This document shows positions 21,475 through 46,684 of a stretch of 64,000 bases of DNA, one piece after another. The stretch comes from Tropicimonas sediminicola. Lineage in GTDB: Bacteria; Pseudomonadota; Alphaproteobacteria; Rhodobacterales; Rhodobacteraceae. Every line of letters begins with the position of its first letter. Position 1 is the stretch's first letter. A program made the position numbers and the translations under genes. The notes under the pieces are model-generated. The model ran no database searches. It was not told where the DNA came from and saw nothing but the letters and a program-made list of their open reading frames with translations. The DNA is taken from positions 806,001 to 870,000 of the forward strand of contig NZ_FZOY01000001.1 in NCBI RefSeq assembly GCF_900188335.1, written 5' to 3'.

Positions 21475-21642
21475 ATGGCAAACCGCCCCGCACTCGTGTC
21501 CATAGCCGACCTCCGCCGCGCAATGAAAGTTGGGGCAGAGTTCGGTATGGCTGTTATGGTGCGCCCAGACGGAACGGTGATAATCTCTCCGGTTCCAGAG
21601 GACGCGCCACGGCAGAACGAAGGGGCTGCGCTCGAATGGTGA
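21475..21642 (+). CDS. 55-residue protein overlapping the integrase start
   Basis: The frame starts MANRPALVSIADLRRAMKVG and ends GAALEW, overlapping the integrase ATG by 7 nt. GTGAGAG lies upstream. The small size, position directly before an integrase and helix plus beta-hairpin look (MAVMVRPDGTVIISP) fit an excisionase-like or regulatory partner. No family motif is certain. Confidence 0.55.
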   Translation: MANRPALVSIADLRRAMKVGAEFGMAVMVRPDGTVIISPVPEDAPRQNEGAALEW

Positions 21643-22724: not shown

Positions 22725-22725
22725 A

Positions 22726-22759
22726 GGTGTCCCACGCCGAGTTCGAAGGGTGTCCCACG
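22726..22759 (+). repeat. Direct repeat of GGTGTCCCACG near the attachment site
   Basis: GGTGTCCCACG occurs at 22726-22736 and 22749-22759, 23 bp apart, beginning just after the integrase stop and within 75 nt of the tRNA-Val 3' end. Repeats at this place are usually integrase binding sites. The role is inferred. Confidence 0.5.
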
Positions 22760-22800
22760 GCGCTCCGGGGCGTTGAAATCAGGGACATTTATGGAGGCGG

Positions 22801-22876
<76 letters not shown>

Positions 22877-26248: not shown

Positions 26249-29200
26249 ATGGCCATTACTCAGACGTTTTCGCAAACCACGCTGACCGGAACCAACCTCA
26301 CCAACCCGACGTCGTTGCAGATCGGTCCGGATGGACGGCTTTATGTCTCCCAACAGAACGGGATCATCAAGGTCTACGATCTCACCAAGTCCGGAGACAC
26401 CTGGGTGGCCTCGAATGAAGAGACGATCACCCTCATCAACGAGATCCCGAACCACGATGATGATGGCGACCTGAACACGAGCGTGACCAACCGCCAGGTC
26501 ACAGGGATTGTGGTCGAGGGAACCGCGGAGAACCCGATCCTGTACGTGAGTTCGAGCGATCCGCGGATCGGGGCAGGGGGGAGCGGGAACGACTCGAACC
26601 TCGACACGAACTCGGGGATCATCTCGCGTCTGACATGGAATGGCACTTCGTGGGACAAGGTCGATCTGGTGATCGGCCTTCCGCGGTCTGAAGAGAACCA
26701 TTCGACCAACGGCATGGACATCCGCCTCGAACAGGTGGAGGTCGCGCCGGGCGTCTTCGAGACGCACGAGATCATGTACGTCATGTCGGGCGGCCATGAC
26801 AACAAGGGCGCCCCGTCCAACAATTTCGCTTACACGCCAGAGTATTACTACTCGGCCGCGATGCTGCGGATCGATCTGACGCAACTCGCGGAAATGGAAC
26901 AGGAACTGCAGGCAAACGGCGGGCTGAACGGCGGAACTGCCTATGTGGATGAATACGTTTACGCCCTTCCGACATTGGACGACCCGACCCGCACCAACGT
27001 GACAGCCGTTACGGGTGATGGCGCGATCGACAGCGCGTCCGGCACCACGGGTGCGGCCGATCAGGAAGCCGGCGACACGTTTGGCGGCAACGACGGGCGG
27101 AACCAGGCGAAATACGATCCGGACGGGCCCGTGCAGGTCTATTCGCCGGGCTATCGGAATGCCTACGACGTGGTGATCACTGAAGCCGGGAACCTCTACA
27201 CCTTCGACAACGGTCCGAACAACGGCTGGGGCGGGGACCCCGTGGCATCCGACGGCACCGAGGTGACCAGCGACACCCAGGTCGCGACGAACCAGCCCAA
27301 TCTCACCGACAATACGAACGACTCCGACCCGGACAACCTCCACATCGTTCAGGAAGGCACCTATGGGGGCCATCCGAACCCGACCCGTGCCTCGGGCGCG
27401 GCGGCCGGCCTCTGGTCCGGCCAGGGGGGCGGGCTCAGCGAAGACGTCCAACTTACGCCCACGAGCGATCCGTCGAACGACCCCAACACGGTCTGGGACG
27501 ATCTGCCCGAGGATTGGGACACGATCACCGGCGGCATCACCAACCCGATCGAGGGCGTCTACTACGGGGGCGACAGCAATCCCGGCCCGAAGGACGAGTC
27601 CCTCCTGTCGATCGGCTCCTCGACCAATGGCATCACAGAGTACACCGCCGACAACATCGGTGACGGTGGGCCCGGCACCGAATACCTGGCGACCGTCTCC
27701 TTCAACGGCAACCTGACGCTGATCGAGGTCGCGACGGACGGCACGGCCGCAGGGTCTACCGTCACTGACACCGAGACGATCAGCGTCGGCGGCACGCCGC
27801 TCGACGTCACCGCCCTGGACAACGGCGGGATTCCGGGCAGCGGCGGCACAGGGGCAGGGGCCATGTTTGTCGCGCAGATCGGTGCCGACAACATCATCGT
27901 GCTGGAGCCCGGCGATCCGCCGGGTATCGATCTCGATGCCGACAACGATGGCGTCCTGGACAAGAACGATCCCCTGCAGTTCGACCCGGACAACGGCACG
28001 CAGACCATCCTTCAGGGGGGGGAGACGCTGTTCTGGGACTTCAACCCGGCAGCGGGCAACAATCCCGGGCCGAGCGGCGAATACAACATCGGCATGAACG
28101 GCTGGATGATCGACGGGTCGGGCGAAATCAACCCGGACGTGCTGATCGACGACCCGAGCGCGGACCTGCTGACCGATCTGAACAACACGATCCGTGGCGG
28201 TGCTCCGGGCGTCGTGCAGATCAAGCAGGTGGACGACGGGGATGCCTACCAGGGCAACAATACGCAGAACGACGCCTTGCAGGGGGGCTTCACACCTGCC
28301 GCGGATGTGGGGACGTTCACCATTCGAGTGCCGATCTTCAATCCCTATTCCAGCGTGGGGCTCGATCAGAATTTCGGAGCGGTCGGGTTCGCGCTCGGTG
28401 ACGGATCGCAGCAGAACTACTTGAAGGTGATGGCCGGAGTCGGCGGCGGCGTTCCCCGCTTGCAGGTCTACTACGAAGAAGGCGACGCGGGCGTTGTGGA
28501 CATATCCGTCAATGGCTCTACGGATGCCGACTTCAACAATGCCGCGACGAATGCCTCGGGCAATTCGCTCTTCGAGCTCTATCTGACGGTCGATCTGACC
28601 CAAGGCACACCGACGGCGCAGGCCTATTACAACTACGAACTCACGCCGGGCGGCGGCATGGTCCTGGCCCAGCCCAAGGCAATCGGCGGTCCGATCACGC
28701 TGCAGGGCGAGGTTCTGAAGGCCGTGACCGGTCAGAAGACCATCCAGGACGAGAGCGGGAACGATCTGCCGTCCTCGGCCATCGTCACGTTGCTGGCGAC
28801 GTCCTTCGGGGCCGAAACGCCTTTCGAGGCGAATTTCGTCGACATGGAGATCACGTCGACCGCACAGGCCATCGCACCCGTTGCGCAGGATGACGAGTTC
28901 ACGGCCACGCCGGACCAGCCGGTCGTTATCGATGTCGCGGACCTTCTGGCCAACGACAGCGATGCGAACGCCACGGACACGCTCACGGTGACGGGTGTGT
29001 CGAACGCGCAGAACGGCTCTGTCGTTCTGGATGACAACGGCACCGCTGGCGACGCCACTGACGACCTTGTAATCTTCACTCCGAATGCCGGCTTCGAAGG
29101 CGACGCGACGTTCGAGTACACGGTTTCCGACGGCACCGGCCTGAACGATACCGCGATGGTCACCATTGCGTTGGCCAACCAGGTGCTGCTGTACCGGATC

Positions 29201-32200
29201 AATGCCGAAGCCGAGACGATTTCTGCGCTGCCCGGGTCTCCGCTAGACCCGAACGGTGAGGTCGACTGGGTCGGAATCGGCGGCACTGGGGCCGCGACTG
29301 TCGGCGGCGCGTCCGTCAACACAGGCACGATCAGCACGCAGAATACCTCCGGCCGCGCGACGACAGGTCCCTACGCGGTGCCCGACTACGTGCCGCAGGC
29401 GTTGTTCGAAAAGGAACGCTACGACCCGTCCAGCGGTGCCGAGATGGAGTGGGATTTTTCCGCGCCCACTCAGGGCACATATACGGTCAACCTCTTCATG
29501 GGGAATGGATACGGCGGGACCAGCCAACCCGGCGAAAGGGTCTTCGACATCTTCATCGAGGGACAACTCGTCGAGGACGACCTGGACCTGTCTGCCACGC
29601 TTGGTCACCAGGTCGGCGGGATGTTCACCTACGAGGTGCTCGTGACAGACGGCAACCTCGACATAGACTTCGGGCATGTTGTCGAGAACCCGCTCGTCAA
29701 CGGTATCGAGATCTACGGCCCGGCATCTGGTGCGCCGGTCGACACGACCGCGCCCCTGATCGCTGAGATCGACGTGCAGCCCTTGAGCACGCAGGCCGGA
29801 AACGACCAGCCGATCTCCGTTTTCGTGACCTTCACCGACAACGAAGGCGTCGATACGGACACGATCCTCGGTACCACCTTGTCGGTCAGCGGCGGCCCGA
29901 TCGGCAGCGATCCGACCACCGTGATCATCACGGGTGCCGATGGGGACCCGTCCATCGTTGCCGAGTACATCGTCGATGCACCCGACGGCGGCTGGCCCGC
30001 CAACACCCCCTACACATTCGAAGTGTCTGGCGTCACGGACGAAGCCGGCAACGCGGTCGTCGCAGCGGCGGAGGGGTATACCTTTGCCGCACCGGTCGAG
30101 CCGGGCGATGTGGTCTACAGGGTGAACGCCGGCGGCGCTCAGATTGCGGCCGGAGACGGCGGCCCGGCGTGGTCGGAGGACCAGTCCGCGAGCACTGCCA
30201 ACGGCTCTGCCAACACGGGGACGCCGTCCCAGTACCTCGATCTGACGGCCCCCGCGCAGGACACCACCTATGGAGCGGCCTTCACCGGGGCGAACAACAC
30301 CACCTTGCCCGACGCCATCTTCTCGACGGAGCGTTACAGCGAGGTCGCCAATCCCGACAACATGTCGTGGGATTTCGTCGTCGCGGACGGCGACTACATC
30401 GTCAATCTCTACTTCGCCGAGGTCTGGACCGGAGCGCAGAGCGCCGGCGCCCGGGTCTTTGACATCAATATCGAGAACATGTTGGTAGAAGACGATTTCG
30501 ATATCACGGCCGTCTTCGGCTGGAACACGGCTGACGTGCGTTCCTATGAAGTCACGGTTGCAGACGGGGTTCTCGATATCGATTTCCTGAAGGGGTCTGC
30601 CAACAACCCAAAGATCAGCGCGATCGAGATCGTCGCGGCGTCGGACGCGACACCGGTGGACAGTTTCAACGGCACCCCGGCTACGGGTGACGATTTCTCC
30701 AACGACAACCAGAACCCGGACGACGTCACGCTGAACCTTGGCGCGAACACGCTCGTGTCCAGTGCCGAGAACTCGGACTCCGACTTCATCACCTTCGAGG
30801 TCCAGGCCGGCCAGCAACTGACCGCTATCAACCTGCTCGACTTCGTGAACGAAGGCTCCAACGCGGTGTTCCTCGGCATCCAGCAGGGCGGCACGATGCC
30901 GAGCCAGTCGGACATCGAGAACGGCAGTGCAACGCTCGACGGCGGGCTCGTCTTCAACGAGACGCAGGTCGGCAACGACATCCTTCCGCTCCTGGCCTCG
31001 AACACGGTCGAGGGCGCCGGCCAGCCGACCAACGGGTTGTCGCTGCCACTGGGGCCGGGCGTCTACACGCTCTGGTTCAACCAGAACCAGGACCTGACGG
31101 TCAGCACGCTGGAGCTGGTGACCGAGGAAATCCCGGCCTCCACGGCCGCGGCAGAGATCCTCGTCGATACCACCGGCATCAACGGCTCCACCTACGGGAA
31201 CCAATCGTTCAACATCTCCAACACCGGCGACGTCGCCATCACGAAAGTGACCTTCGATCTTTCCTCGGCGATCCTGCCGGAGGTCGTGTTCGATCCGAAC
31301 GGCACCGCCGGCGACGGCACCGCCAAGGGCTTCACGCCCGACGGCGGCAGCGAAGTGACGACCGGCGTCACCGACCACAGCTTCACGGGCGCCTATGAAG
31401 GCGGATTCTACGGCCTCGAGATCGACTTCAGCGATTTCCAGAATGGCGAGACGCTGACCTTCGGGCTCGACGTCGACCCGATCAGCATCAAGGGCGCCGC
31501 GTCGCCGGGGCCGAATGCGTCCGGCTCGGTGTCGGGCTTCGAGCTGATCGGAAGCACCGTGACCGTGGAATTCGCGGACGGCACCTCCGTCACCAGCAAC
31601 CTGTTCGATGCCGGAAACGAGGCGGACGCCGTTGCGGTGGTCACCGCCGGTGCGCCCGAAGCGCCAACGATCGGCCTGCTCAACGGCGCGAGCCCCTCGA
31701 CGGTCAACAGCGCGAACCAGACCATCGTGATCCTCGGAACGCCGAACGCCGAGGTGACGTTGCTTCAGGTCGAGGCCGGCATGTTCATCGACGGGATCGA
31801 TGGTCCGAACGCACCGGACGGCTACGATGTGGACCCCTACGAGGCGAACAGCGCCATCAGCCGCACGGTGTTCACCGGAACGCTGGATTCCAATGGCCAG
31901 CTCGCCGTGCCGGTCACGCTGCTGGACAGCGATGACGAGGGCGGGCTGAACCACTTCGTCGCCGTGGTGAATGGCGCGGACGGTAAGACCAGCCAGACCA
32001 GCAACAAGATCGTGGTCGAGTTCGACGCCTCCGCCACAGGGCCGGGCGGGTCCTACCTGCCGAACGCGCAGGGCAACTTCATCTTCGAGGCCGAGGATGG
32101 CCTGAACAACGGGCCCGGCGGTTTCGAGATCAAGGATGCGTCTCAACTGGAGGCCGGCCACGCCCAGCCGTCCAACGACTACATCGAGACCTCAACCAAT

Positions 32201-35200
32201 CATTTCGGCAACAACGCAGGCAACGGCGAGACGCTGACCTACAAGTTCACGCCGGAAACCGACGGCTTCATCCGGATCAACCTGATCTCGAGCTATCAGG
32301 GGGCCGATGCGACGGAGGAAAACGACGCCTGGACCAAGATCCAGCTCGACGGTGTGGACATCCCCGCGCTGGACCGCTCCGTGCCGCTCGTCAGCAACAA
32401 CGGCTTCTACAAGACCTACCAGAGTGGCCAGGCCTCGACGGACTGGAAACTCGCCAACAAGAACGTCGACAACAACGGTCAGCCGATCGTCATTCCGGTC
32501 GAAGGCGGCAAGACCTACGACTTCCTGCTGTCCGAGCGTTCCGCAGGGTTCGAGATCGACAAGATCGCGCTCGAGTTCTTCGAGACCGACCCCGGCAACA
32601 CCAGCTTTGGCGGCTTCGCGAACCTGAACGGCCAGGAACTGTCCGAACTGGCCCTGCCCGGGGCCGAGATCTCGGGCCGCGTCTTTGCGGACGCGAACGA
32701 CAACAACGTCGACGACAGCGAGCCCGGAGTTGCCGGCGTCACCGTCGAGCTGCTCGACAGCGCCGGTTCTGTCGTCGCGACGGCAGTGTCCACCGACAAC
32801 GGCGGCTACGTCTTCGCGAACCTTGCGGACGGGACCTACTCGGTCCGCTTCCCGACCGATCTGAATGGCGACCCGCTGGTCCTGGCCAACCAGGGCGGTG
32901 ACGATACCGCCGACAGCGACGCGGACCCGTCGAACAACGGGGAAACCCAGCAGGTTACCGTGGTGGCAGGCGACGTCGTCTCCGATGTCGATGCCGGCTA
33001 TGACCGGGAGATCGTGCTGGTCGGCGCGGCGACGCTCGAGGTCACCGTGAACTCCGACAACGTTCAGTCCTCGAACTACGGCAACAATTCCTTCGTGCTG
33101 ACCAATGTCGGCGACAAGGATATCGCCAAGGTCGAGATCGACGTCACGAACGCGATCTTCACCGATGCGGTCTTCGACCCGTTCGGCGAGGCGGGCGATA
33201 CTGTCGCGAAACACCTCACGATCAACACAACTGGCGGCACCGGCGTGGATGCACCGGACCTCGGAACCAGCAGTGCGCCGGGTTCGAGCTATCTCGGTGC
33301 GGGCGGCATTCTGGGCTTCGAAGGGGTGCAGCTGACCTTCGACCCGAATTCCAGCGGTGGCTTCAACAGCGGGGAATCCGTCGGTTTCGCGGTCGACATG
33401 GACCCGAATTCCATCGCCGGCGCGACAAAATCCACGCTCGACAGCGGTGCGAGCCCGGCTTGGGATATCGGGGGCATCTCCGGGGCCGAGCTGATCGGCT
33501 CGACCTTCACCGTGACCTTCACGGATGGCAGCACGGCGACAGGCTATCTGAGCGGCGCGGGCAACCAGGCCGGCTCCAAGGGCCTCGCGAGCCAGGACTC
33601 GCCCGACTTGTCTCCGACCCTGACCGTCAACGGCCTCGTGCCGGGCGGCGTGGGCACATACCAGGACGGCGGCCCGAGCATCATCATCGATGGCCCGGCC
33701 GGCGAGACGGTGCGCGTGGTCGTCGCCAAGGGCATCATCCAGCCCGTCAACAACAACTTCCCCGATGATCCGAGCAATCCCAACGAGTATCACGACCAGC
33801 TCGATGCGCAGCTCGCAGCATTGGCGGCATCGGACTTCCCGGCCAACAACGCCGCCGAGTTCCTGACCGTGGACGTCGTTCTGACCGGAACGCCGCAGGA
33901 CATCTCCGGCCTGTTCGACTTCTCCCAGGTTACCCAGGGGCAGCAACTGGCGGTGGACGAGAGCACGCTCCCGCTCGGGATCGTCGCGGCGGTCATCGAC
34001 CCGACCAACAACGACCTGCCGAAAGGCCCGGTGACCGACTCCATCTACCTGACGCACAGCGTCAATGCCGATCCGGTCGCGCAGGACGACGCCTTCAGCG
34101 TGGACGAGAACGCGGCGATCGTGGGTGGCGATGTCTTTGCCGACAACGGCAACGGCCCGGACAGCGACGCCAACCTGACCGATGTGCTCACCGTGTCGGA
34201 GGTCAACGGCGTGCCCGGCGATGTCGGGGTCCAGGTCACGCTTCCGTCGGGAGCGCTGCTGACGCTGAACGGCGACGGCACGTTCGACTATGATCCGAAT
34301 GGCATCGACGTGCCGGCAGGCGAGATTGCGACGGATACGTTCACCTACACCATCTCGGATGGCAATGGCGGCGTCGACACGGCGACGGCAACCATCTCGA
34401 TCAACGGCGTGGTGAACCCGCTCGACATCGACGATGACGGCATCCTGAACACCGACGATCCCTTTGCCTACGACGGCAGCAACGGACTCGACCGGGTGCT
34501 GGTGGCCGGCGGGTCGTTCACCCAGGATTTCAACACGCCGACCGATCATCCGTTCGACGCCGATGGCGGTTTCACCGGCATTCTCGTGAACCAGGCCTTC
34601 GACTACGGGAACCCCACGGATCCGGCTGCGGACCCCTATGGCAACCGGACCAACGAGGCGGACGTGTCGATCTCCGGAGGGACGTTGAACGTCCTGTCCA
34701 CGGAAACCGACGCATTCTCCACCGGCACGGGCACCAACAACACGCTGGCCGATGGCTATCAGTCGGCTGTCGATGTCAGCGGCCTGACCACGTTCGAAGT
34801 GCACGCAAGGGCGAGCAGCGCCGATTGGTTGGCCTCGACCTCGCAGAATGGCTACTCCCAGTTCGGGATCACCCTTGGCGCGGGCGGGACGGATGACTTC
34901 GTCAAGCTGGTGATCAGTGACCGGGGCAACGGGGCGCCCGCCATCCAGATCGCGAACAACCAGTCGCTTGCCGTCGGAGAGCAGAATTACTCCGTCAACG
35001 CTGCGAACGGCCCGTCGGTCGACCTGTCTCTGGTCGGCGATATCGAATTCCGCCTGATCGTCGACAAATCGGCAGGTGCGAACGGCCAGGTAATCGGCCA
35101 GGTGGACTTCCTTGCGGCATCCGACGGTTCGCTGCTTACCTCCTTCACGTCCCCACCGGTGGATATCCTCGCGAACAGCTCGCTTCTGGATGCCATGGCC

Positions 35201-37660
35201 AACGACAACCCGCTCACCGGCGGCGAGGGGACGGGCGGGCTCGCCTACGGCATCTTCGTCTCCGACTGGAGCGGTTCCGGCGCCGCCAACCGTATCACGG
35301 CGAACTACGACTTCCTGACGATCCGGGCCCTCGACGATGTCATCGCGACGATCTCTGTCGACGATCCGACCCTGGTCGAGGATGGTGACACGGGCGAGAC
35401 CACGCTCAGCTTCACCCTCAGCTCGGATGCGCCGATCAGCGGCGATGCGGATGTCTCCTTCATACTGACGGGGACCACCGCCTCGGCGCCGGACAGCCCG
35501 GCCACGGTGACCTTCGTCAATGGTGTCGCGTCCATCGATGTGACCGTCGCCAACGACGACATGGCGGATGCGGACGACCTCATCGGCATCGAACTCACGG
35601 CCATCGCGCCGTCGACGGGCTCGGCCATCACCGCAACGCTGCAGCTTGGCGACACGATCGGCTTCGGCACAGTGGCCGAGGACGATGCGGCGCCCATGGG
35701 AGGCGACGACACCGCGAACACGCCGCTGGATCAGGCCCTTACCATCGCTGCCGCGGATCTGTTGTCGAACGACACGGATGCGGATGACACCGGTGCAGGC
35801 GCCCTGACAATCACCGGCGTCGGGACCGATGGCGCGGACGGTGGCACGGCCAACGGCGGCACCGTCGCGATCGACACCAATGGCGACGTGGTCTACACGC
35901 CGGCGGCGGGCTTCAGCGGGGAAGACACGTTCTCCTACGTGGTCAGCGACCCGGGCGGAAATACCGGAACCGCCACCGTCACCGTCTATGTGACCAACGT
36001 CGTCATCGACGCGACGATCCAGGTTTCGGGCGAGACGACCTACGGGACCAATTCGTTCGACATCGCCCTGTCGTCGGCGACCTCGGAAGGGGTCACGATC
36101 AAGTCGATCGAGTTCGACATCGGCACGGCGACCATGTCCTATGGTCTGGATCTCTCCGGCTCCAGCCCGTTCCTGGGCGCCGCCTGGGATCCGACCGGCA
36201 GCGCAGGCGACGCCGGCGCGCAGGGCCTGCAGTTCAACGACAACGTCGTCGGGCTGGTGGACCAGAACGGCGCCATTCTGCCTGCCACCGGATCGCCGGG
36301 CTTCACCGGAACAACGGGCATCTATCCCTTCGCTGACCAGCTTGCGGGCCCGATCGGTCCGGGCGGCTATCGGACGATGATACTGAACTTCGACAACTTC
36401 GATGTGGGCGAGGCCTTCGACTTCGGCATGGATATCGATCCGCAGTCGATCCAGGGCGCGTCCGGGACCGGCGAGGCCGGGGCCGTCTCCGGCGGCGAGA
36501 TCGCCGGGACGACGATCACCGTGACCTTCGATGACGGTTTCGGAAACGACATCGTCCTCACGCGGCAACTCGAACTGACCGGGCTCAACACCTCGCAAGC
36601 GACCTTCTCGAACGCCCAGGCGGTCTCCGCTCCGACTCTCGAAGTGGTTGGCGCGACCGATACGGCGCGCCGGGTCGAGACCTCGTCGGTCAACCATACG
36701 GTCGAGGTCAGCGGAGTGGTGCCGGGGGCGACGGTGGAGCTCTACCTCGTCGATGCGTCCGGCTACGAGAAGCACGGTGCGAACGGCTCGGCCACGCTCC
36801 CCTCGGATCTGTTCCATGGCAACGACATGGATGTGGCCCCGACAATCCTGTCTGCCGTCGCCGACGGCTCCGGGGTGGCGACCTTCGACATCACCCTGAA
36901 CGAGACGGACAACGGCGCAGCGCCCGCGACGGTGGATGGCCTGTTCTTCCTGTCGGCCGGCGTCGTGGACGGGCAGGGGAACCTGCTTAGCGCCCTGGCG
37001 GAACCGGCGGAGCTCAAGCTGGTGGAGGCCGCCAACCAGGCGCCCGAGATCACCTCGCTCGATGCTTTCCTCTTCACAGAAGGTCAGGCCGGAGCCGTCT
37101 TCACGGCGATGGCCACCGACCCGGAGAACGATCCGATCACCTTCGATCTGGGAGGTGCCGACGCCAGCCGGTTCTTCATCGACGCAACGACCGGGGAAGT
37201 GACGCTTGTCGATGCGCCGGTCTTCACCATCGCCGACGAAGACATCGCGACGGTGGAGGACGTGGTGCAGACCCTGAACATCTCGGTGATCGCGTCGGAC
37301 GGGCAGGACCAGACCGTGCAGGACGTGACGGTCGAGTTCCTGAAGGACAGCGACGGCGACACCGTCGCCGACCTGAACGACAACGCGATCCTCGTCGCCA
37401 ACACCGACCAGGCCGATAGCAACCAGGACGGCTACGGAGACGTGCTGGATGCGGATATCAACGGGGATGGCTTCGTCAGCATCCTGGATTTCTCGATCCT
37501 GTCGACGGCCTTCAACACGCAGCTTGGGGATCCGGGCTACGACGATCGTGCCGACCTGAACTACGACCTGGCGATCACCCTGACCGACTTCTCCGCGCTG
37601 TCGGCGCAGTTCAACACCGTCCTGCCCCAGCTGTCCTCGGTGGATCTGATCGAGATCTGA
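26249..37660 (+). CDS. Giant modular extracellular protein with sugar-dehydrogenase-like propeller and C-terminal dockerin
   Basis: 3803 residues, acidic, Asp/Asn/Gly/Thr-rich, no N-terminal signal peptide. Approximate order: 1-550 beta-propeller of the glucose/sorbosone dehydrogenase type (LYVSQQNGIIKVYDL, EENHSTNGMD, SPGYRNAYD, YGGHPNP). 557-578 TSP3-like Asp repeat. 585-870 lectin-like. 876-975 cadherin-like. 980-1162 and 1288-1465 malectin-like. 1168-1280 Ig-like. 1630-1810, 2259-2500 and 3254-3595 three copies of an unnamed module. 1932-2115 CBM6/35-like. 2142-2256 SdrD-B-like. 2610-2720 and 3150-3255 cadherin-like. 2725-3030 second TSP3 plus lectin-like unit. 3030-3148 Calx-beta-like. 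3597-3710 cadherin. 3740-3797 type-I dockerin with two Ca-binding loops (DINGDGFVSILDFS, DLNYDLAITLTDFS). It ends SSVDLIEI. The cohesin gene follows 43 nt later. I infer a secreted glycan-binding oxidoreductase-like protein docked on that partner. Confidence 0.85.
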   Translation: MAITQTFSQTTLTGTNLTNPTSLQIGPDGRLYVSQQNGIIKVYDLTKSGDTWVASNEETITLINEIPNHDDDGDLNTSVTNRQVTGIVVEGTAENPILYVSSSDPRIGAGGSGNDSNLDTNSGIISRLTWNGTSWDKVDLVIGLPRSEENHSTNGMDIRLEQVEVAPGVFETHEIMYVMSGGHDNKGAPSNNFAYTPEYYYSAAMLRIDLTQLAEMEQELQANGGLNGGTAYVDEYVYALPTLDDPTRTNVTAVTGDGAIDSASGTTGAADQEAGDTFGGNDGRNQAKYDPDGPVQVYSPGYRNAYDVVITEAGNLYTFDNGPNNGWGGDPVASDGTEVTSDTQVATNQPNLTDNTNDSDPDNLHIVQEGTYGGHPNPTRASGAAAGLWSGQGGGLSEDVQLTPTSDPSNDPNTVWDDLPEDWDTITGGITNPIEGVYYGGDSNPGPKDESLLSIGSSTNGITEYTADNIGDGGPGTEYLATVSFNGNLTLIEVATDGTAAGSTVTDTETISVGGTPLDVTALDNGGIPGSGGTGAGAMFVAQIGADNIIVLEPGDPPGIDLDADNDGVLDKNDPLQFDPDNGTQTILQGGETLFWDFNPAAGNNPGPSGEYNIGMNGWMIDGSGEINPDVLIDDPSADLLTDLNNTIRGGAPGVVQIKQVDDGDAYQGNNTQNDALQGGFTPAADVGTFTIRVPIFNPYSSVGLDQNFGAVGFALGDGSQQNYLKVMAGVGGGVPRLQVYYEEGDAGVVDISVNGSTDADFNNAATNASGNSLFELYLTVDLTQGTPTAQAYYNYELTPGGGMVLAQPKAIGGPITLQGEVLKAVTGQKTIQDESGNDLPSSAIVTLLATSFGAETPFEANFVDMEITSTAQAIAPVAQDDEFTATPDQPVVIDVADLLANDSDANATDTLTVTGVSNAQNGSVVLDDNGTAGDATDDLVIFTPNAGFEGDATFEYTVSDGTGLNDTAMVTIALANQVLLYRINAEAETISALPGSPLDPNGEVDWVGIGGTGAATVGGASVNTGTISTQNTSGRATTGPYAVPDYVPQALFEKERYDPSSGAEMEWDFSAPTQGTYTVNLFMGNGYGGTSQPGERVFDIFIEGQLVEDDLDLSATLGHQVGGMFTYEVLVTDGNLDIDFGHVVENPLVNGIEIYGPASGAPVDTTAPLIAEIDVQPLSTQAGNDQPISVFVTFTDNEGVDTDTILGTTLSVSGGPIGSDPTTVIITGADGDPSIVAEYIVDAPDGGWPANTPYTFEVSGVTDEAGNAVVAAAEGYTFAAPVEPGDVVYRVNAGGAQIAAGDGGPAWSEDQSASTANGSANTGTPSQYLDLTAPAQDTTYGAAFTGANNTTLPDAIFSTERYSEVANPDNMSWDFVVADGDYIVNLYFAEVWTGAQSAGARVFDINIENMLVEDDFDITAVFGWNTADVRSYEVTVADGVLDIDFLKGSANNPKISAIEIVAASDATPVDSFNGTPATGDDFSNDNQNPDDVTLNLGANTLVSSAENSDSDFITFEVQAGQQLTAINLLDFVNEGSNAVFLGIQQGGTMPSQSDIENGSATLDGGLVFNETQVGNDILPLLASNTVEGAGQPTNGLSLPLGPGVYTLWFNQNQDLTVSTLELVTEEIPASTAAAEILVDTTGINGSTYGNQSFNISNTGDVAITKVTFDLSSAILPEVVFDPNGTAGDGTAKGFTPDGGSEVTTGVTDHSFTGAYEGGFYGLEIDFSDFQNGETLTFGLDVDPISIKGAASPGPNASGSVSGFELIGSTVTVEFADGTSVTSNLFDAGNEADAVAVVTAGAPEAPTIGLLNGASPSTVNSANQTIVILGTPNAEVTLLQVEAGMFIDGIDGPNAPDGYDVDPYEANSAISRTVFTGTLDSNGQLAVPVTLLDSDDEGGLNHFVAVVNGADGKTSQTSNKIVVEFDASATGPGGSYLPNAQGNFIFEAEDGLNNGPGGFEIKDASQLEAGHAQPSNDYIETSTNHFGNNAGNGETLTYKFTPETDGFIRINLISSYQGADATEENDAWTKIQLDGVDIPALDRSVPLVSNNGFYKTYQSGQASTDWKLANKNVDNNGQPIVIPVEGGKTYDFLLSERSAGFEIDKIALEFFETDPGNTSFGGFANLNGQELSELALPGAEISGRVFADANDNNVDDSEPGVAGVTVELLDSAGSVVATAVSTDNGGYVFANLADGTYSVRFPTDLNGDPLVLANQGGDDTADSDADPSNNGETQQVTVVAGDVVSDVDAGYDREIVLVGAATLEVTVNSDNVQSSNYGNNSFVLTNVGDKDIAKVEIDVTNAIFTDAVFDPFGEAGDTVAKHLTINTTGGTGVDAPDLGTSSAPGSSYLGAGGILGFEGVQLTFDPNSSGGFNSGESVGFAVDMDPNSIAGATKSTLDSGASPAWDIGGISGAELIGSTFTVTFTDGSTATGYLSGAGNQAGSKGLASQDSPDLSPTLTVNGLVPGGVGTYQDGGPSIIIDGPAGETVRVVVAKGIIQPVNNNFPDDPSNPNEYHDQLDAQLAALAASDFPANNAAEFLTVDVVLTGTPQDISGLFDFSQVTQGQQLAVDESTLPLGIVAAVIDPTNNDLPKGPVTDSIYLTHSVNADPVAQDDAFSVDENAAIVGGDVFADNGNGPDSDANLTDVLTVSEVNGVPGDVGVQVTLPSGALLTLNGDGTFDYDPNGIDVPAGEIATDTFTYTISDGNGGVDTATATISINGVVNPLDIDDDGILNTDDPFAYDGSNGLDRVLVAGGSFTQDFNTPTDHPFDADGGFTGILVNQAFDYGNPTDPAADPYGNRTNEADVSISGGTLNVLSTETDAFSTGTGTNNTLADGYQSAVDVSGLTTFEVHARASSADWLASTSQNGYSQFGITLGAGGTDDFVKLVISDRGNGAPAIQIANNQSLAVGEQNYSVNAANGPSVDLSLVGDIEFRLIVDKSAGANGQVIGQVDFLAASDGSLLTSFTSPPVDILANSSLLDAMANDNPLTGGEGTGGLAYGIFVSDWSGSGAANRITANYDFLTIRALDDVIATISVDDPTLVEDGDTGETTLSFTLSSDAPISGDADVSFILTGTTASAPDSPATVTFVNGVASIDVTVANDDMADADDLIGIELTAIAPSTGSAITATLQLGDTIGFGTVAEDDAAPMGGDDTANTPLDQALTIAAADLLSNDTDADDTGAGALTITGVGTDGADGGTANGGTVAIDTNGDVVYTPAAGFSGEDTFSYVVSDPGGNTGTATVTVYVTNVVIDATIQVSGETTYGTNSFDIALSSATSEGVTIKSIEFDIGTATMSYGLDLSGSSPFLGAAWDPTGSAGDAGAQGLQFNDNVVGLVDQNGAILPATGSPGFTGTTGIYPFADQLAGPIGPGGYRTMILNFDNFDVGEAFDFGMDIDPQSIQGASGTGEAGAVSGGEIAGTTITVTFDDGFGNDIVLTRQLELTGLNTSQATFSNAQAVSAPTLEVVGATDTARRVETSSVNHTVEVSGVVPGATVELYLVDASGYEKHGANGSATLPSDLFHGNDMDVAPTILSAVADGSGVATFDITLNETDNGAAPATVDGLFFLSAGVVDGQGNLLSALAEPAELKLVEAANQAPEITSLDAFLFTEGQAGAVFTAMATDPENDPITFDLGGADASRFFIDATTGEVTLVDAPVFTIADEDIATVEDVVQTLNISVIASDGQDQTVQDVTVEFLKDSDGDTVADLNDNAILVANTDQADSNQDGYGDVLDADINGDGFVSILDFSILSTAFNTQLGDPGYDDRADLNYDLAITLTDFSALSAQFNTVLPQLSSVDLIEI

Positions 37661-37703
37661 CTTCGCGTCGATCGTAACCTGTTACCTTTTTGGAGCTTCC
37701 CAG

Positions 37704-40700
37704 ATGGCCCGTATTATCATTGATCTCGACATTCTGGCCCCCGGCGTTCAGTCGGTCGCCGAGCTTGAAGTCGGCGACACCTTTGAAGTGCAGATCCTGC
37801 TCGAGGCCGACGCAAACGAGCAATACGACGGCGCCGAGTTCCACATCGGCTACGATCCTTCGGTTCTGTCGGCGACGAGTGTCGTGAGCGAGGCCAGTGC
37901 CGAGCTTCCGATCGCCCTCATCCCGGCGTCTTTCGACAACACCTCGGGAGAGATCGATTTTTCCCGGGGCACTTTTTCGGCTGCGCCAAGTGGTGACCTC
38001 GTTCTGGCGACCTTTACTTTCGAAGTGGTCGGCGAGGGATCGACAGATCTTGCCTTCAGTGACTCCTTTCCATTCTCCGACGTGACATTCGGAGGCGTCT
38101 CCATCCTCGACGGCACGGATGGGGCCAGCGTGTCTGTAGGGGGCGAAAACACCCCGCCGGTGGCCAGCGACGACACGGCGAGCACGTCCGAGGACACGGC
38201 GGTGACGGTGTCGGTGCTCGACAACGACGGCGACGCGGATGGCGATGCGGTGGTGGTGACCGGGGCGTCGGATCCGGCGAACGGCTCGGTCGAGGTCAAC
38301 TCGGACGGCACGATCACCTACACGCCGGACGCCGAGTTCAACGGCACCGACAGCTTCACCTACGACGTCTCGGACGGCAACGGCGGCACCGACACCGCCA
38401 AGGTCGAGGTGACTGTGAACGCGGTGGACGACGCGCCGGTCGCGTCCGACGACACCGGTTTCTCGACGCCGTTCAACACGGCGCTGACGATCAACGCGGC
38501 GGACCTCCTCGTCAATGACGACGACGGCGATCCGGAGCTGACCCAGGCGCTCGGCGTGACCGGTGTCGGGTCGGCCTCGGGCGGCACGGTGGGGCTCGAC
38601 AACGGCGTCATCACCTTCACACCGACGCCCAGCAGCACCGGGGCAGCGAGCTTCGAATACACGATGACCGACGGGTCGGGCCAGAGCGCAACGGCGACGG
38701 TCTCGGTCAGCGTCGGCGCGAACACCCCGCCGGTGGCCAGCGACGACACGGCGAGCACGTCCGAGGACACGGCGGTGACGGTGTCGGTGCTCGACAACGA
38801 CGGCGACGCGGACGGCGATGCGGTGGTGGTGACCGGGGCGTCGGATCCGGCAAACGGGTCGGTCGAGGTCAACTCGGACGGCACGATCACCTACACGCCG
38901 GACGCCGAGTTCAACGGCACCGACAGCTTCACCTACGACGTCTCGGACGGCAACGGCGGCACCGACACCGCCACGGTCGAGGTGACGGTGAACGGCACGG
39001 CGCGCATGGTTCTGGACACCGACACCTCGGCCGCCGGCGTGCAATCGGTCGCGGACCTGGCCGTGGGGGACGGCTTCGAGGTGCTGGTGCTGCTCGAGAC
39101 CGGGGCGGGCCAGCAATACGACGCCGCCGAATTCCACCTCGACTTCGACCCCAGCGTTCTCGCTGCGACCGGCATCACGGTGCTGAGCGGCGCCGAGCTG
39201 CCGCTGGAGCTGGTTCCGGACGCCTTCGACAACACCGCCGGCACGGTCGACTTCGTGCGCGGCACGGTGTCGAACTTCCCGTCCGGCTCGCTCGCGCTGG
39301 CGACGATCAGCTTCGACGTGGTGGGCGCAGGCTCGACGGACCTCGCCTTCAGCGACGCCTTCCCGCGCGAGACCGGCGTGACCTTCGCCGGGTCCAGCAT
39401 CCTCGAGGGCACGGAGGGCGCGACCGTCAACGCGACCGCGCAGAACACCCCGCCAGTGGCCAGCGACGACACGGCGAGCACGTCGGAGGACACGGCGGTG
39501 ACGGTGTCGGTGCTCGACAACGACGGCGACGCGGATGGCGATGCGGTTGTGGTGACGAAGATCGCCGGTGTCGATGCGATCGTCGACGCGGCCATCTTGC
39601 TTTCCAGCGGCGCGACGGCGACGCTCCGGTCCGACGGCACGATCAGCTACGATCCCAATGGGGCGTTCGATGGCTTGAATGCCGGGCAGACCGGGGCGGA
39701 CAGCTTCAGTTACGTCATCGCGGATGCGCAAGGCGCCGAGGCGAGCGCTCAGGTCGACGTCAGCATCAACGGCAAGGATGAGACGCCCGGCGGTGACGGC
39801 ATCGGGCTGTGGCTGTTCGAGGACGGGTCGCCCGGGAAGGACGAGACAGCGCAGGACAACACGGCGCTGTTCCGCAACGGGGCCTTCGTGTCCGGCGGCG
39901 CGGCGCAGTTCGACGGGGCGAACGACTATGTCGAGATCCCCGACCTGCCGCTCTACGACCTCGAGGAGGGCAGCATCGCGATCACCCTGACCGTCGCCGA
40001 CCTGAACGGCCTGTCCGGCCTCTTCTCTCGGGACAGCTCGGGCTACGACGGCGGCGGCCATGTGAGCGCCTGGGTCGACAGCGGCGGCGCGGTGCTGGTG
40101 CGCCACCAGACGACGTCGACCTCCTATACGGTCGAGACGGCCGCCGGCGTGGTCTCGGAGGGCGAGCAGATCTCGCTGGTCTACCGGTTCAGCGACGCGG
40201 GCGGCATGGAGCTGCTCCAGGACGACGGCCTCGGCAACCTGACGCTCCTCGCGCAGAACGCCAGTGCCGACGTGAGCCTCGCCGGCAACGACGAGCCCTG
40301 GGTCGTCGGCGCGGCGCAATCCCGTTCCGGAGACGGCATCGCCGACAGGATCGAGGACTTCCTCGAAGGCTCCATCGACCGCTTCGAGATCTATACCGGG
40401 GCGCCGCCCTCGGTCGATCCGAACCTTCCGCCGACCGCGGCGCCCGACAGCGCCACGACGCAGGAGGACACCGCGCTCACGAACATCGCCGTGCTGGGCA
40501 ACGATGGCGACGCCGACGGCGACCTGCCGCTCGTCCTGGCCGGTGTGGTGCAGCCGGCGAACGGCACGGTGACGCAGAATGCGGACGGGACGCTGAACTA
40601 CACGCCCGACGCCGATTTCTTCGGCACCGACGTGGTGCTCTACACGGTCCGCGATGCCCGCGGCGCGACCTCGCAGGGCGTTCTGACCATCGAGGTCAGC

Positions 40701-41618
40701 CCGGTCGACGATCCGGCCATCGCCAACGATGACAGCGGTGCGACGCTGGTGAACACGCCCGTCGCGATCTCGGTCCTGGCGAACGATGTCGATGTCGACG
40801 GCCCCGCGCCGAGCATCGCAAGCTTCGACGCGACCTCCGCCAACGGCGGGACGATCACCAGCGCCGGCGGGGTGCTGACCTACACCCCCGCGGCGGGGTT
40901 CGAGGGGGCGGACAGCTTCGGCTACACCCTCGCAGGCGGCGACAGCGCGGTGGTGACGGTCAACGTGTCGGACGTGCCGCAGCCGGAACCCGGCATCGGG
41001 CTGTGGCTGTTCGAGGACGGGTCGCCCGGGAAGGACGAGACAGTGCAGGACAACACGGCGCTGTTCCGCAACGGGGCCTTCGTGTCCGGCGGCGCGGCGC
41101 AGTTCGACGGGGCGAACGACTATGTCGAGATCCCCGACCTGCCGCTCTACGACCTCGAGGAGGGCAGCATCGCGATCACCCTGACCGTCGCCGACCTGAA
41201 CGGCCTGTCCGGTCTCTTCTCGCGGGACAGCTCGGGCTACGACGGCGGCGGCCATGTGAGCGCCTGGGTCGACAGCGGCGGCGCTGTGCTGGTGCGCCAC
41301 CAGACGACGTCGACCTCCTATACGGTCGAGACGGCCGCCGGCGTGGTCTCGGAGGGCGAGCAGATCTCGCTGGTCTACCGCTTCAGCGACGCGGGCGGCA
41401 TGGAGCTGCTCCAGGACGACGGCCTCGGCAACCTGACGCTCCTCGCCCAGAACGCCGGCGCCGACGTGAGCCTCGCCGGCAACGACGAGCCCTGGGTCGT
41501 CGGCGCGGCGCAATCCCGCTCCGGAGACGGCGTCGCCGACAGGATCGAGGACTTCCTCGAAGGCTCCATCGACCGCTTCGAGATCTATACCGGGGCGGAC
41601 GATTTCATCTTCGTCTGA
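37704..41618 (+). CDS. Two-cohesin scaffold-like protein with cadherin-type and LamG-like repeats
   Basis: 1304 residues, GGAG 9 nt upstream, no signal peptide. Residues 2-143 and 432-580 are cohesin-like: VGDTFEVQILLEAD, AEFHIGYDPSVLSAT, FDNTSGEIDFSRG, LATFTFEVVGEGSTDLAFSD, each repeated with variation in the second copy. Between and after them lie cadherin-like units at 149-242, 243-341, 342-431, 580-696 and 903-1096 (SDDTASTSEDTAVTVSVLDN type). Two LamG/concanavalin-like domains at 699-900 and 1097-1298 (GIGLWLFEDGSPGKDE, AQFDGANDYVEIPDLPLYDL) are almost identical in DNA. It ends GADDFIFV. Cohesins bind dockerins; the gene just upstream ends in one. The LamG and cadherin parts suggest glycan or surface attachment. 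It could anchor the giant protein and other dockerin proteins. Pairing is inferred from adjacency. Confidence 0.85.
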   Translation: MARIIIDLDILAPGVQSVAELEVGDTFEVQILLEADANEQYDGAEFHIGYDPSVLSATSVVSEASAELPIALIPASFDNTSGEIDFSRGTFSAAPSGDLVLATFTFEVVGEGSTDLAFSDSFPFSDVTFGGVSILDGTDGASVSVGGENTPPVASDDTASTSEDTAVTVSVLDNDGDADGDAVVVTGASDPANGSVEVNSDGTITYTPDAEFNGTDSFTYDVSDGNGGTDTAKVEVTVNAVDDAPVASDDTGFSTPFNTALTINAADLLVNDDDGDPELTQALGVTGVGSASGGTVGLDNGVITFTPTPSSTGAASFEYTMTDGSGQSATATVSVSVGANTPPVASDDTASTSEDTAVTVSVLDNDGDADGDAVVVTGASDPANGSVEVNSDGTITYTPDAEFNGTDSFTYDVSDGNGGTDTATVEVTVNGTARMVLDTDTSAAGVQSVADLAVGDGFEVLVLLETGAGQQYDAAEFHLDFDPSVLAATGITVLSGAELPLELVPDAFDNTAGTVDFVRGTVSNFPSGSLALATISFDVVGAGSTDLAFSDAFPRETGVTFAGSSILEGTEGATVNATAQNTPPVASDDTASTSEDTAVTVSVLDNDGDADGDAVVVTKIAGVDAIVDAAILLSSGATATLRSDGTISYDPNGAFDGLNAGQTGADSFSYVIADAQGAEASAQVDVSINGKDETPGGDGIGLWLFEDGSPGKDETAQDNTALFRNGAFVSGGAAQFDGANDYVEIPDLPLYDLEEGSIAITLTVADLNGLSGLFSRDSSGYDGGGHVSAWVDSGGAVLVRHQTTSTSYTVETAAGVVSEGEQISLVYRFSDAGGMELLQDDGLGNLTLLAQNASADVSLAGNDEPWVVGAAQSRSGDGIADRIEDFLEGSIDRFEIYTGAPPSVDPNLPPTAAPDSATTQEDTALTNIAVLGNDGDADGDLPLVLAGVVQPANGTVTQNADGTLNYTPDADFFGTDVVLYTVRDARGATSQGVLTIEVSPVDDPAIANDDSGATLVNTPVAISVLANDVDVDGPAPSIASFDATSANGGTITSAGGVLTYTPAAGFEGADSFGYTLAGGDSAVVTVNVSDVPQPEPGIGLWLFEDGSPGKDETVQDNTALFRNGAFVSGGAAQFDGANDYVEIPDLPLYDLEEGSIAITLTVADLNGLSGLFSRDSSGYDGGGHVSAWVDSGGAVLVRHQTTSTSYTVETAAGVVSEGEQISLVYRFSDAGGMELLQDDGLGNLTLLAQNAGADVSLAGNDEPWVVGAAQSRSGDGVADRIEDFLEGSIDRFEIYTGADDFIFV
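38148..38420 (+). repeat. Cadherin-type DNA repeat, copy 1
   Basis: A 273-bp in-frame unit (91 codons) nearly identical to 38721-38993; only a handful of bases differ. It encodes NTPPVASDDTASTSED and on to VEVTVN. A shorter third copy of the first 114 bp lies at 39444-39557. Confidence 0.85.
38721..38993 (+). repeat. Cadherin-type DNA repeat, copy 2
   Basis: Second copy of the 273-bp unit, offset 573 bp (191 codons) from copy 1. Near identity at silent positions points to recent duplication or ongoing gene conversion. Confidence 0.85.
39798..40403 (+). repeat. LamG-domain DNA repeat, copy 1
   Basis: A 606-bp in-frame unit (202 codons) from GGCATCGGGCTGTGG to ACCGGGGCG. It matches copy 2 at all but about ten bases, several of them silent. 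Confidence 0.9.
40992..41597 (+). repeat. LamG-domain DNA repeat, copy 2
   Basis: Second copy, offset exactly 1194 bp. Protein changes are few, such as ETAQDN to ETVQDN and NASADV to NAGADV. Recombination between the copies would delete one LamG plus the cadherin pair between them and keep the frame. Confidence 0.9.
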
Positions 41619-41845: not shown

Positions 41846-44800
41846 TCAGGCGATCAGGAAAGTGTCGGACATGAGGAAGTCGTCGATGGCGGCATCGAGG
41901 TCGGCGCCGGTCTGGTAAGCGAGGTTGACGATGCGAGTGTCGAGGTCCGGCCCGGTGTCGGCCACGTCGTAGGCGGTGTCCGCAGTGGCGTGGGTGTCGA
42001 GCAGGTATTCGGCGAAGGCATCCTGTTCGGTGCCGTCGTAAGCGAAGGTCGCATCGCCGCTCAGAACCTCGTCGTCCAGCCCGTCTCCATCCGTATCGGC
42101 GAGCGCGAGCTCGATCCAATCGGTGGGGAAGGGGTAGCCGTCGCCGCCGGTGGCGAGGAACCCGAGGGTGACCACGCCGTATTCCGCATCCGCATTGACT
42201 ACGACCCCGTCATTGACGAGCACCGCGCGGACATTGCCGCTCTCGTCGACGAAGGCTGCATCCTCGATCCGGGCGCCGGAGGGCGCGTCGGGGTCGAAGC
42301 TGAGCTGCAGGCCGGCGAGTTGCGGGAAGCGGCCGTTGACGTCCGGCAGCGCGGCCAGGCCGTGTTCCAGAACCGTCACGATCTCCGTCGCGGTCAGCGA
42401 GCCGACCACCAGGTCGTTGTTGAAGGACAGCGAGGTCTGGATGTCGTTCTGGCTGATGCCGCCGGCGGGCTTGGCGACGTTGCCGTCGCCGTCCAGGATC
42501 TCCTCGTTCGGCAGACGTTCGAACTCGGTGCCGCCCGCGGGGACCACGGTCTGGCCGATGGAGGCGCGAATGCCGCCGCCGTTCTTGAGCGAGAGCCAGA
42601 CATCGACGCTGTCCTGCATCTCGTTTGCATAGGCGAGGTTCGCATCCGCCGTGAGATCGCCGAGATTGGTCTCCTGCGTCCGCACCCCGTCGGGATCGTC
42701 CGAGGCGAAGGTGCCCGAGCGATTGCCGTTCAGGAAGACGTTGGAGATGCCGAAGACGTTGCTTTCCGTCGCGAGGATCTGATCCTGGATCGCGTCCGCG
42801 ATGGCCTGGACCTCGGGGTCGACGAGGTCTTCGGCGTTCAGATCGGCCACACCCTGCGCGTCGGTCGCATAGGCGCCCGAGATCTCCGGGTCGTAGGTCT
42901 CCGGGATGATGTTGCCATCGGCATCGAAGTCGACGACCAGCCGGCCGACATATTTGTAGCTGCCGTCGGTGTTGACCACCGCGGTGGTTGTGCCGCCGGC
43001 GTTCTCGATGAAGATCGGATATTCGCCCTGCGCGCTGTCGCCGTCGCGCAGTCGGTCGGTTTCGTCGAGGAGGCGGGTGTTCGACCCGCCGGCGACGATC
43101 ACGTCCACGTCCGTCAGGCGCGCGGCGAGTTCCTGCTTGATCGAAAGCTGCTGCATGTGGGCGAGCAGGATGACCTTGTTCATCTCCGGGTTCGCATCGA
43201 GCAGGGCGTCGACCTCGGCCTGGATCTCGGAGGCCAGGGCATCCAGTTCGGCGGCGGTCGGGATGGTGTCGGCCCAGAAGGGAGCGATGCCGACGTCACC
43301 GGGCGAGGAGATGCGGGCGAGCGTGGGCGTCGTCGCGCCGACGATGCCGAAGAGCTCTCCGCCTTCCTCGATCACCGTCGAGGAGGTGACGGCGTTGGCG
43401 ACCGGAGACAGCCCTCCCGCGACCATCAACGACGCCATGTTGGCGTCGGTCGAGAAGTCGAGATTGGCCGAAAGGTAAGGGAAGGCGGCACCGGTGAAGT
43501 CCATCCCTTCCAGGCTGGAGCCCACCAGCGCGGAAAAATCGCCCGCGGCATCGCCCGAGATCAGCCCGGCGAGCTGTGCCGTGCCGAAATCGAACTCGTG
43601 GTTGCCGAATGCGATGGCCTGCACGCCCAGCTCGTTCTGGATCTGCATGTCCGCGATGCCGGCAGTGCCGAAGACCGCCGCCGAGGCCTGGTAGAAGAGG
43701 CCCGGGATGAAGGCGTCGCCCGAGGACAGTGTCAGGGTGCCGTCGGCGCCCACGTCCTCGCCCCGCAGGGCGTTGAGAACAGCCGACAGGCGCGGCGCAT
43801 CCTCGACGGCCGCAGCGCCGGCTTCCTGGTCGGCGAAATGCAGCAGGCTGAGGGTGAAGTCCGGCGTCGGGTTGGTGACGCCGACTTCGGCCAGCTCGCT
43901 CTCGTAGGTGCCGTCGGAGACGCGGTAGGTGAAGTTCAGCTCGCTCACAGGCTTGGTCGCCTTGACGAGGATCGTGCCGTCGTCCTGCAGCTTGACGATG
44001 CCGACCTTCTTGCCGTCTTCCTCGATGAAGAAGGTCGGTTTCTTTCCGATGTCCTGACCGTTGATCTCGGAGATGAAGAGCGCCTTGCCGGTCGGGGCAT
44101 AATCGTTGGCGAGCAGGTCGAAGGCGTGGAACTTGTGGAAGTTCTCGGCCACAACGCGAAGCGTGTCATCTTCGGCCACCGGGGCGAAGTTGATCCGGGC
44201 CACGATCGGGTCATGGTCGGAGGCGCGCGTGTCGGTGGCGGCGAACTCGGCGTTGACGTGGACGTTGTCCACCTCGGTCACCTTCGCCAGCCCGTTGTCG
44301 ACCATGATGTGGTCGAGCGACTGGCTGTTGCCCTCGAAAATATAGCTGTAGCGCTCGTCCTCGGGCAGGAAGTTCGTCAGGTTGGTCAGTCCGGCGTCGG
44401 CGATGATCTCGGTCGGCGAAACGAACTCGAACTCGTTGAAATCGCCGAGCACGACCACCTGCGCCTCATCGCCGAGGCTTTCGATGTAATCGGCAATGAA
44501 CTGTGCCTGCTGCTTGCGCTGGTCGACGGAGCCGTTGATCGCGGGGTCTTCCTGCGCGTCGGCGGTGTCGAAGGGCTGGGTCGTCCCCATGATCGGCGCG
44601 GAGCCGCTCTTGGAGGAGAGGTGCACGTTGATGACCGTGAGGACCGGGCCATCCGTTGCGCCACCGCCGATGAACTGGAACTCCGCCACAAGCGGGATCC
44701 GCCCTTCGAAGAACGAGTACTCGTCGCCATCCCCGTCGACCAGCGTGCGCACGGACCCCTCGACGAGGCTGACGCGAGTCGTGTCGTAGAGGAAGGCGTT

Positions 44801-46480: not shown

Positions 46481-46684
46481 TTTTGTTTTGCCCCCACAGC
46501 AATACCTCACGACCATCGCGGGCGGAAAATGTGCGGGGGACAATCCTCAGGGAAGGTAACGCCCGGATGTCGGTGATCTGACAGTTTTGGGAAACCGGGG
46601 CTCGCCACTTGTGGGGCGTGCCAGCAGTTGGATCCCATCGCGTCTGACTGGAGAAGGCGGTTGGCAGGGCGCCATAGGTCGCGT

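Follow-up and report, generated by a model that had tools for sequence, protein, structure and literature searches.

A 64,000-nucleotide stretch of the Tropicimonas sediminicola genome (contig NZ_FZOY01000001.1, positions 806,001 to 870,000; here called the window) carries two adjacent genes, one for a 3,803-residue multidomain protein with a C-terminal dockerin (P0001) and the next for a 1,304-residue cohesin protein (P0002). Here we propose that, on balance, the two represent one long extracellular protein that became two chains rejoined by dockerin–cohesin binding. By Pfam each half of the pair is unique in the genome, the two genes are adjacent and a comparable pair recurs in a second genome of the same family (G406); together, these make a pairing of P0001 with P0002 on the cohesin–dockerin principle well supported. 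Three relatives have similar modules in a single chain, and such a fusion, or ‘Rosetta stone’, suggests that P0001 and P0002 work as one unit, with the cohesin–dockerin clip at the joint.

The two genes occupy 26249..37660 (P0001) and 37704..41618 (P0002), as called from open reading frames (ORFs) and Pfam matches; these and all of their features given below lie on the + strand, in window coordinates. The gap between them (37661..37703) is 43 nucleotides long, contains no promoter- or terminator-like site that we could find and has a GGAG preceding the P0002 start codon. A first-pass annotation, made from the DNA letters without database searches, had described a 3,803-residue dockerin-ended protein with the next gene 43 nucleotides downstream, and the ORFs confirm this arrangement. 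Hydropathy gave no evident N-terminal signal peptide in P0001 (value 0.21; P0002, 1.67; P0004, for comparison, 2.74), and no membrane anchor is evident in either P0001 or P0002. The C-terminal end of P0002, DDFIFV, is an acidic-hydrophobic tail of what we take to be the type I secretion kind.

The dockerin spans 37454..37624. Dockerin_1 (PF00404; cut-off 22.9 bits) scores 28.7 bits against the whole of P0001 and 35.7 bits against its last 114 residues. Its two calcium loops, DINGDGFVSILD and DLNYDLAITLTD, stand at residues 3736 and 3769, a spacing of 33, and both keep the acidic ligand residues, which in type I dockerins fall, we assume, at loop positions 1, 3, 5, 9 and 12. The two calcium-binding repeats noticed in the first pass are upheld. 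In a PDB sequence search, the end of P0001 matches solved cellulosomal dockerins (2y3n_B, E 2.4e-8) and also thrombospondin-type calcium repeats (COMP, E 3.2e-14); directly ahead of the dockerin are thrombospondin type 3-like calcium repeats (37346..37453), with COMP and thrombospondin matches and a TSP_3 score of 22.5 bits (cut-off 25).

P0002 opens with cohesin 1 (37704..38141), which at 37.2 bits exceeds the PF00963 cut-off of 24.1, so that both families proposed for searching in the first pass, PF00404 and PF00963, are matched over cut-off. Cohesin 2 (38997..39437), also predicted in that pass, falls just below the cut-off at 22.0 bits yet shares 60% identity with cohesin 1. For cohesin 1, AlphaFold run on two sequences gave a model of moderate quality (pLDDT 64.7). 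When this model was searched with Foldseek, 49 of the best 50 of 62 PDB rows at E <=0.001 were cohesin entries, with E 1.0e-6 to 1.7e-4 and TMq 0.46–0.63, values to be read with the model’s modest pLDDT in mind. The sole other row among these 50, at rank 5, is a CLIPPER domain, which belongs to a fibrillar adhesin (PMC12617251).

Both families are rare in this group. In the 5.17-Mb window genome, the Pfam matches at E 0.001 number one for dockerin and two for cohesin, all in P0001 and P0002; the genome-wide search suggested in the first pass thus yields no dockerin beyond that of P0001. Among 146 relatives, the cohesin family occurs in one (the window genome) and the dockerin family in five, the window genome included; at class level the cohesin search picked out 1 of 385 genomes (again the window genome) and at phylum level 2 of 209 (the window genome and G848), these three sets overlapping and each containing the window genome. 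A profile built from the two window cohesins matches 2 of 394 family genomes, the window genome and G406. A contig scan with two short patterns from the window cohesins confirmed no relative among 116 stretches, and searches of plasmids gave no match to either window domain (cohesin or dockerin), to the G406 cohesin protein or to the G406 dockerin. Assuming around 5,000 genes, we estimate the chance that a lone dockerin gene and a lone cohesin gene are adjacent at about 2 in 5,000.

The second pair lies on contig C98 of G406 (L063:5582-9402), a genome of the same family as that of the window. There, type 3-like repeats and a dockerin form the end of an RTX-type protein; the dockerin scores 34.5 bits when the protein is scanned and 40.6 bits genome-wide, and is the sole Pfam dockerin match of the genome at E 0.001. 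The gene directly downstream encodes a 191-residue protein whose N-terminus is hydrophobic; it carries a cohesin, scoring 30.3 bits, and a VPLPA-CTERM-like tail, which at 19.9 bits falls under the cut-off of 25.35. The window-cohesin profile finds one cohesin in G406, with 10 of 12 candidates scored. The tail and the hydrophobic N-terminus suggest that this cohesin protein has an envelope anchor.

The single-chain relatives are G258:C68 (4,411 residues; the contig belongs to the Neomegalonema-titled MAG), G406:C79 (a 3,864-residue frame) and G012:C942 (a 4,336-residue frame). In all three, local profiles give the C-terminal series U-LamG-cad4-LamG-cad2-LamG, where U is a module described below, LamG a LamG-like module and cad a run of the stated number of cadherin-like repeats. 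In the window, P0001 closes with U, a stretch without an assigned domain, type 3-like repeats and the dockerin, and P0002, after the gene break, runs cohesin-cad3-cohesin-cad1-LamG-cad2-LamG. With its cohesins removed, P0002 is cad4-LamG-cad2-LamG, and the break lies where the three single-chain relatives have their first LamG; the local profile finds no cohesin in any of the three. The LamG profile was seeded partly from these same relatives, so that its matches there arise by construction; an independent check by BLAST, in which the query was the LamG-like module of the window only, hits three places in each (E 2e-12 to 0.003). The window alone supplied the seeds for the U, cadherin and malectin profiles; that for the propeller drew on the window plus G258.

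Relatives of P0001 were traced through its N-terminal propeller-like domain (residues 1–610; 26249..28078). Eight related loci, mostly in metagenome-assembled genomes (MAGs) and spread over several phyla, include MAGs titled Neomegalonema, Hyphomonadaceae and Gammaproteobacteria, with 81–83% identity over the best segment; the others are in two cyanobacteria, one Acidimicrobiia MAG and, at two loci, one Flavobacteriaceae MAG. None of the seven genomes behind these loci, mostly MAGs of unstated completeness, has a cohesin or a dockerin over cut-off; the Flavobacteriaceae genome, G787, has one match per family below it (16.9 and 18.9 bits). This joint absence agrees with the two families being present or absent together, weakly so because both are rare anyway. 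Within the family, the propeller is found at E 1e-20 in 13 of 394 genomes, the window genome included; among the remaining 12, a Pfam dockerin occurs in G406 alone, and there on a different protein.

Several observations weigh against a split of one protein into two clipped chains. The LamG end is not general: it is present in 3 of the 8 complete family propeller relatives, the frames of G257, G402, G287, G189 and G147 being complete without it (those of G015, for which one of three matching contigs was read, G171, G405 and G409 are cut off). Among the eight propeller loci, one of four complete frames has it—L041, on the same contig as the single-chain relative G258:C68—and L044, L046 and L047 do not; the frames of L042, L043, L045 and L048 are truncated where a locus, stretch or contig stops, and the LamG-end check was made with L048 set aside. 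The LamG and cadherin modules also occur apart from the propeller, as in L093 of G258 (cad4-LamG-cad4-LamG-cad2), one of 11 further stretches that match P0002. Such modules are promiscuous, and P0002 may then be a recruit rather than a split-off half. None of the 11 stretches has the exact window series or, by local profile, a cohesin, and no cohesin was found by that profile in G317 or G150, whose P0002 matches touch cohesin residues. As regards the joint itself, the two glycines that we take to be usual in dockerins are Y and L in the second loop, and a single-sequence AlphaFold model of the dockerin is of very low confidence (pLDDT 34.4). The comparison with G848 (L092:4357-13791) is weak: a marginal cohesin gene (22.7 bits, or 25.5 with frame neighbours; no match on a whole-ORF scan) has beside it a pair of genes whose dockerin-like ends, of a duplicated DVDxSG..DGVLILRRLNG-like form, score 22.3 and 17.8 bits, both below 22.9. 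This may be a third case, with a diverged pair system. Finally, 4 of the 146 genomes besides that of the window have dockerins and no Pfam cohesin (matches at E 0.001: G044, 18; G050, 2; G080, 1; G119, 2, one of them under cut-off), and a dockerin does not, therefore, require a Pfam cohesin partner. The ones examined, namely 6 of the 18 in G044 and a single frame in each of G050 and G080, differ in type and carry a conserved tail beyond the calcium loops; this reading covered the dockerin-like ends outside L007, L008, L012, L013, L018 and L019. In G044:C159 (L074:9365-18588; L011; L017), we also observed adjacent genes that encode proteins with a common dockerin-like C-terminus and the conserved tail GILLGNM.

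The orphan dockerins bear on the view that P0001 and P0002 are no binding pair at all, the dockerin being a calcium-folded C-terminal cap and the cohesin one more β-sandwich spacer. The dockerin-like ends of G044, G050 and G080 are likewise C-terminal in genomes without Pfam cohesins, and the CLIPPER domain that ranks fifth for the cohesin 1 model is a spacer domain; however, a singleton dockerin adjoins a cohesin gene in two genomes, those of the window and G406, and we regard this view as unlikely, if by no means negligible. Rather improbable, in our estimate, is binding in trans between cells or released proteins, by which the pair would mediate cell–cell or matrix contact. With no evident membrane anchor on either chain and two cohesins in P0002, bridging could occur, and roles in cell contact are suggested for anaerobic methanotrophic (ANME) archaea in two reports (PMC5244752, PMC9012536); the neighbouring genes and the module-by-module match to the three single-chain relatives instead favour partners of the same cell.

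The two cohesins could also make P0002 a scaffoldin in the proper sense, with several different dockerin-bearing proteins as its clients. Set against this are the single dockerin that Pfam finds genome-wide at E 0.001, a count that could miss divergent dockerins, and the finding that no cellulase, glycoside hydrolase or any other enzyme domain exceeds its Pfam cut-off in P0001 or P0002, in line with the first-pass remark that no cellulase is visible. We consider a scaffoldin very unlikely, and a cellulosome was rejected on the grounds of the one Pfam dockerin in the genome and the lack of a cellulase or glycoside hydrolase domain in the two proteins. One Pfam dockerin and three single-chain relatives are better accommodated by a split two-chain protein than by a many-client scaffoldin. 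The lock-and-key surface or extracellular scaffold envisaged in the first pass thus retains its pairing principle through uniqueness, adjacency and the G406 pair; the word ‘scaffold’ itself is less apt. That a frameshift or assembly error split one gene, with incidental domains at the new ends, we rejected as next to impossible: the ORFs are 43 nucleotides apart and in different frames, but both ends are recognizable domains, P0002 comes with a start codon and a GGAG of its own, and G406 repeats the gene order.

In the two-chain protein that we favour, P0001 and P0002 would be made from one operon by co-transcription and exported separately, perhaps by a type I-like route without a signal peptide. 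The chains would fold with calcium, and the C-terminal dockerin of P0001 would bind a cohesin of P0002 in a calcium-dependent manner. This joint would restore, non-covalently, the uninterrupted protein found as one chain in some relatives: the propeller, malectins and U modules followed by the cadherin and LamG modules. Having two cohesins, a single P0002 could bind a pair of P0001 chains. From their domains we infer that both proteins lie at the surface or are extracellular; the presence of malectin, cadherin-like and LamG-like modules hints at an adhesive or glycan- or surface-binding role. A bolder proposal joins the two genomes: that in this bacterial family a cohesin–dockerin pair replaced a peptide bond in a giant surface protein whose chains reassemble outside the cell, and that the same two-gene clip in G406 tethers the RTX protein to an envelope-anchored cohesin. 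From the sequences at hand, we think this conceivable, at somewhat less than an even chance.

The modules of P0001 upstream of the dockerin are the N-terminal propeller-like domain, cadherin-like domains, two malectins, SdrD_B and three copies of module U, followed by about 100 residues without an assigned domain and the type 3-like repeats. The sugar-dehydrogenase identity first given to the propeller is not sustained: GSDH matches in Pfam at 15.9 bits versus a cut-off of 25, and no PDB relative was found by sequence with either the single query or a profile of eight rows (L048 and L054–L057 left out). Better founded was the naming of the next modules, as Pfam confirms a cadherin-like/Big_9 domain (28865..29176, also by local profile), two malectin domains (29186..29719 and 30110..30637, two Pfam Malectin stretches with positions set by local profile) and, in addition, an SdrD_B domain. 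Module U, of about 350 residues, was delimited by local profile at 31130..32098, 33011..34078 and 35939..37048, the third copy being the last large module ahead of the break. No Pfam family matches it over cut-off, and it is a candidate new domain family. The same profile also finds module U in cyanobacterial, Acidimicrobiia and same-family relatives.

In P0002, the cohesins alternate with three cadherin-like repeats (38145..38993; Pfam and local profile) and, after cohesin 2, a fourth (39441..39770); LamG-like module 1 (39798..40406), two further cadherin-like repeats (40419..40973) and LamG-like module 2 (40992..41603) complete the chain, all four of these latter features being placed by local profile and the LamG-like ones also by repeat comparison. 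The LamG-like module is about 200 residues long and its two copies are 99% identical; they agree at 596 of 609 nucleotides, as two cadherin copies do at 268 of 273, which points to recent duplication. Copy 1 has no Pfam match, LamG included, at E 0.1, and the module has no match in the PDB. What stands of the first-pass description of LamG and cadherin repeats is therefore the cadherin-like repeats and a duplicated module of this size, the LamG name itself being without a Pfam or PDB match.

Around the pair, a convergent gene at 41846-46543 encodes a 1,565-residue protein that joins an endonuclease/exonuclease/phosphatase domain, ExeM/NucH-like but under the cut-off of that model, to a 5'-nucleotidase C-terminal domain. 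A phage-type integrase gene adjoins tRNA-Val at 21636-22876, and an IS110-type transposase lies at 161-865; these may mark the edge of a genomic island.

The domains of the window belong to known cohesin and dockerin families, and the system is not a cellulosome. Like clostridial cellulosome pairs, it has both families over their Pfam cut-offs, a C-terminal dockerin with duplicated calcium loops and a cohesin fold match; unlike them, it has one Pfam dockerin gene, with no cellulase domain and no long cohesin array in P0001 or P0002, and it is not clostridial. In Archaeoglobus fulgidus, non-cellulosomal cohesin and dockerin genes are neighbours, as in the window, and similarly have no known link to cellulose use. 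We know of no single-chain counterpart to archaeal cohesin–dockerin pairs. Two reports describe members of these families that occur beyond cellulosomes, across all domains of life, in roles that are not known or not clear (PMC5244752, PMC9012536), and one describes archaeal versions that were verified to bind (PMC9012536). The ANME archaea, as presented there, share the lack of a link to cellulose use and differ in having many cohesin and dockerin copies per genome. A non-cellulosomal assembly, the ‘planctosome’, has been proposed for Nemodlikiaceae planctomycetes (PMC6461901); it too combines cohesins and dockerins with thrombospondin type 3 repeats and is without evidence of cellulose degradation, but it is modelled as a peptidase-bearing multi-protein complex with signal peptides and an LTD anchor. 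Among the literature matches listed, which covered few subscription papers, there was no such pair in this bacterial group or as a replacement for a covalent link. With one dockerin and one cohesin gene by Pfam and a covalent version in some relatives, the window offers a specific role that is testable without the ambiguity of many partners—the non-covalent joining of a large extracellular protein, outside cellulosomes. The G406:C98 pair likewise couples the sole Pfam dockerin of its genome to a cohesin gene directly downstream, and differs in that its cohesin protein is small, is hydrophobic at the N-terminus and has a VPLPA-CTERM-like tail; the single-chain relatives run through propeller, malectins, U modules and then a LamG/cadherin series in similar order, but do so within a single protein, a LamG taking the place of the dockerin/cohesin break of the window.

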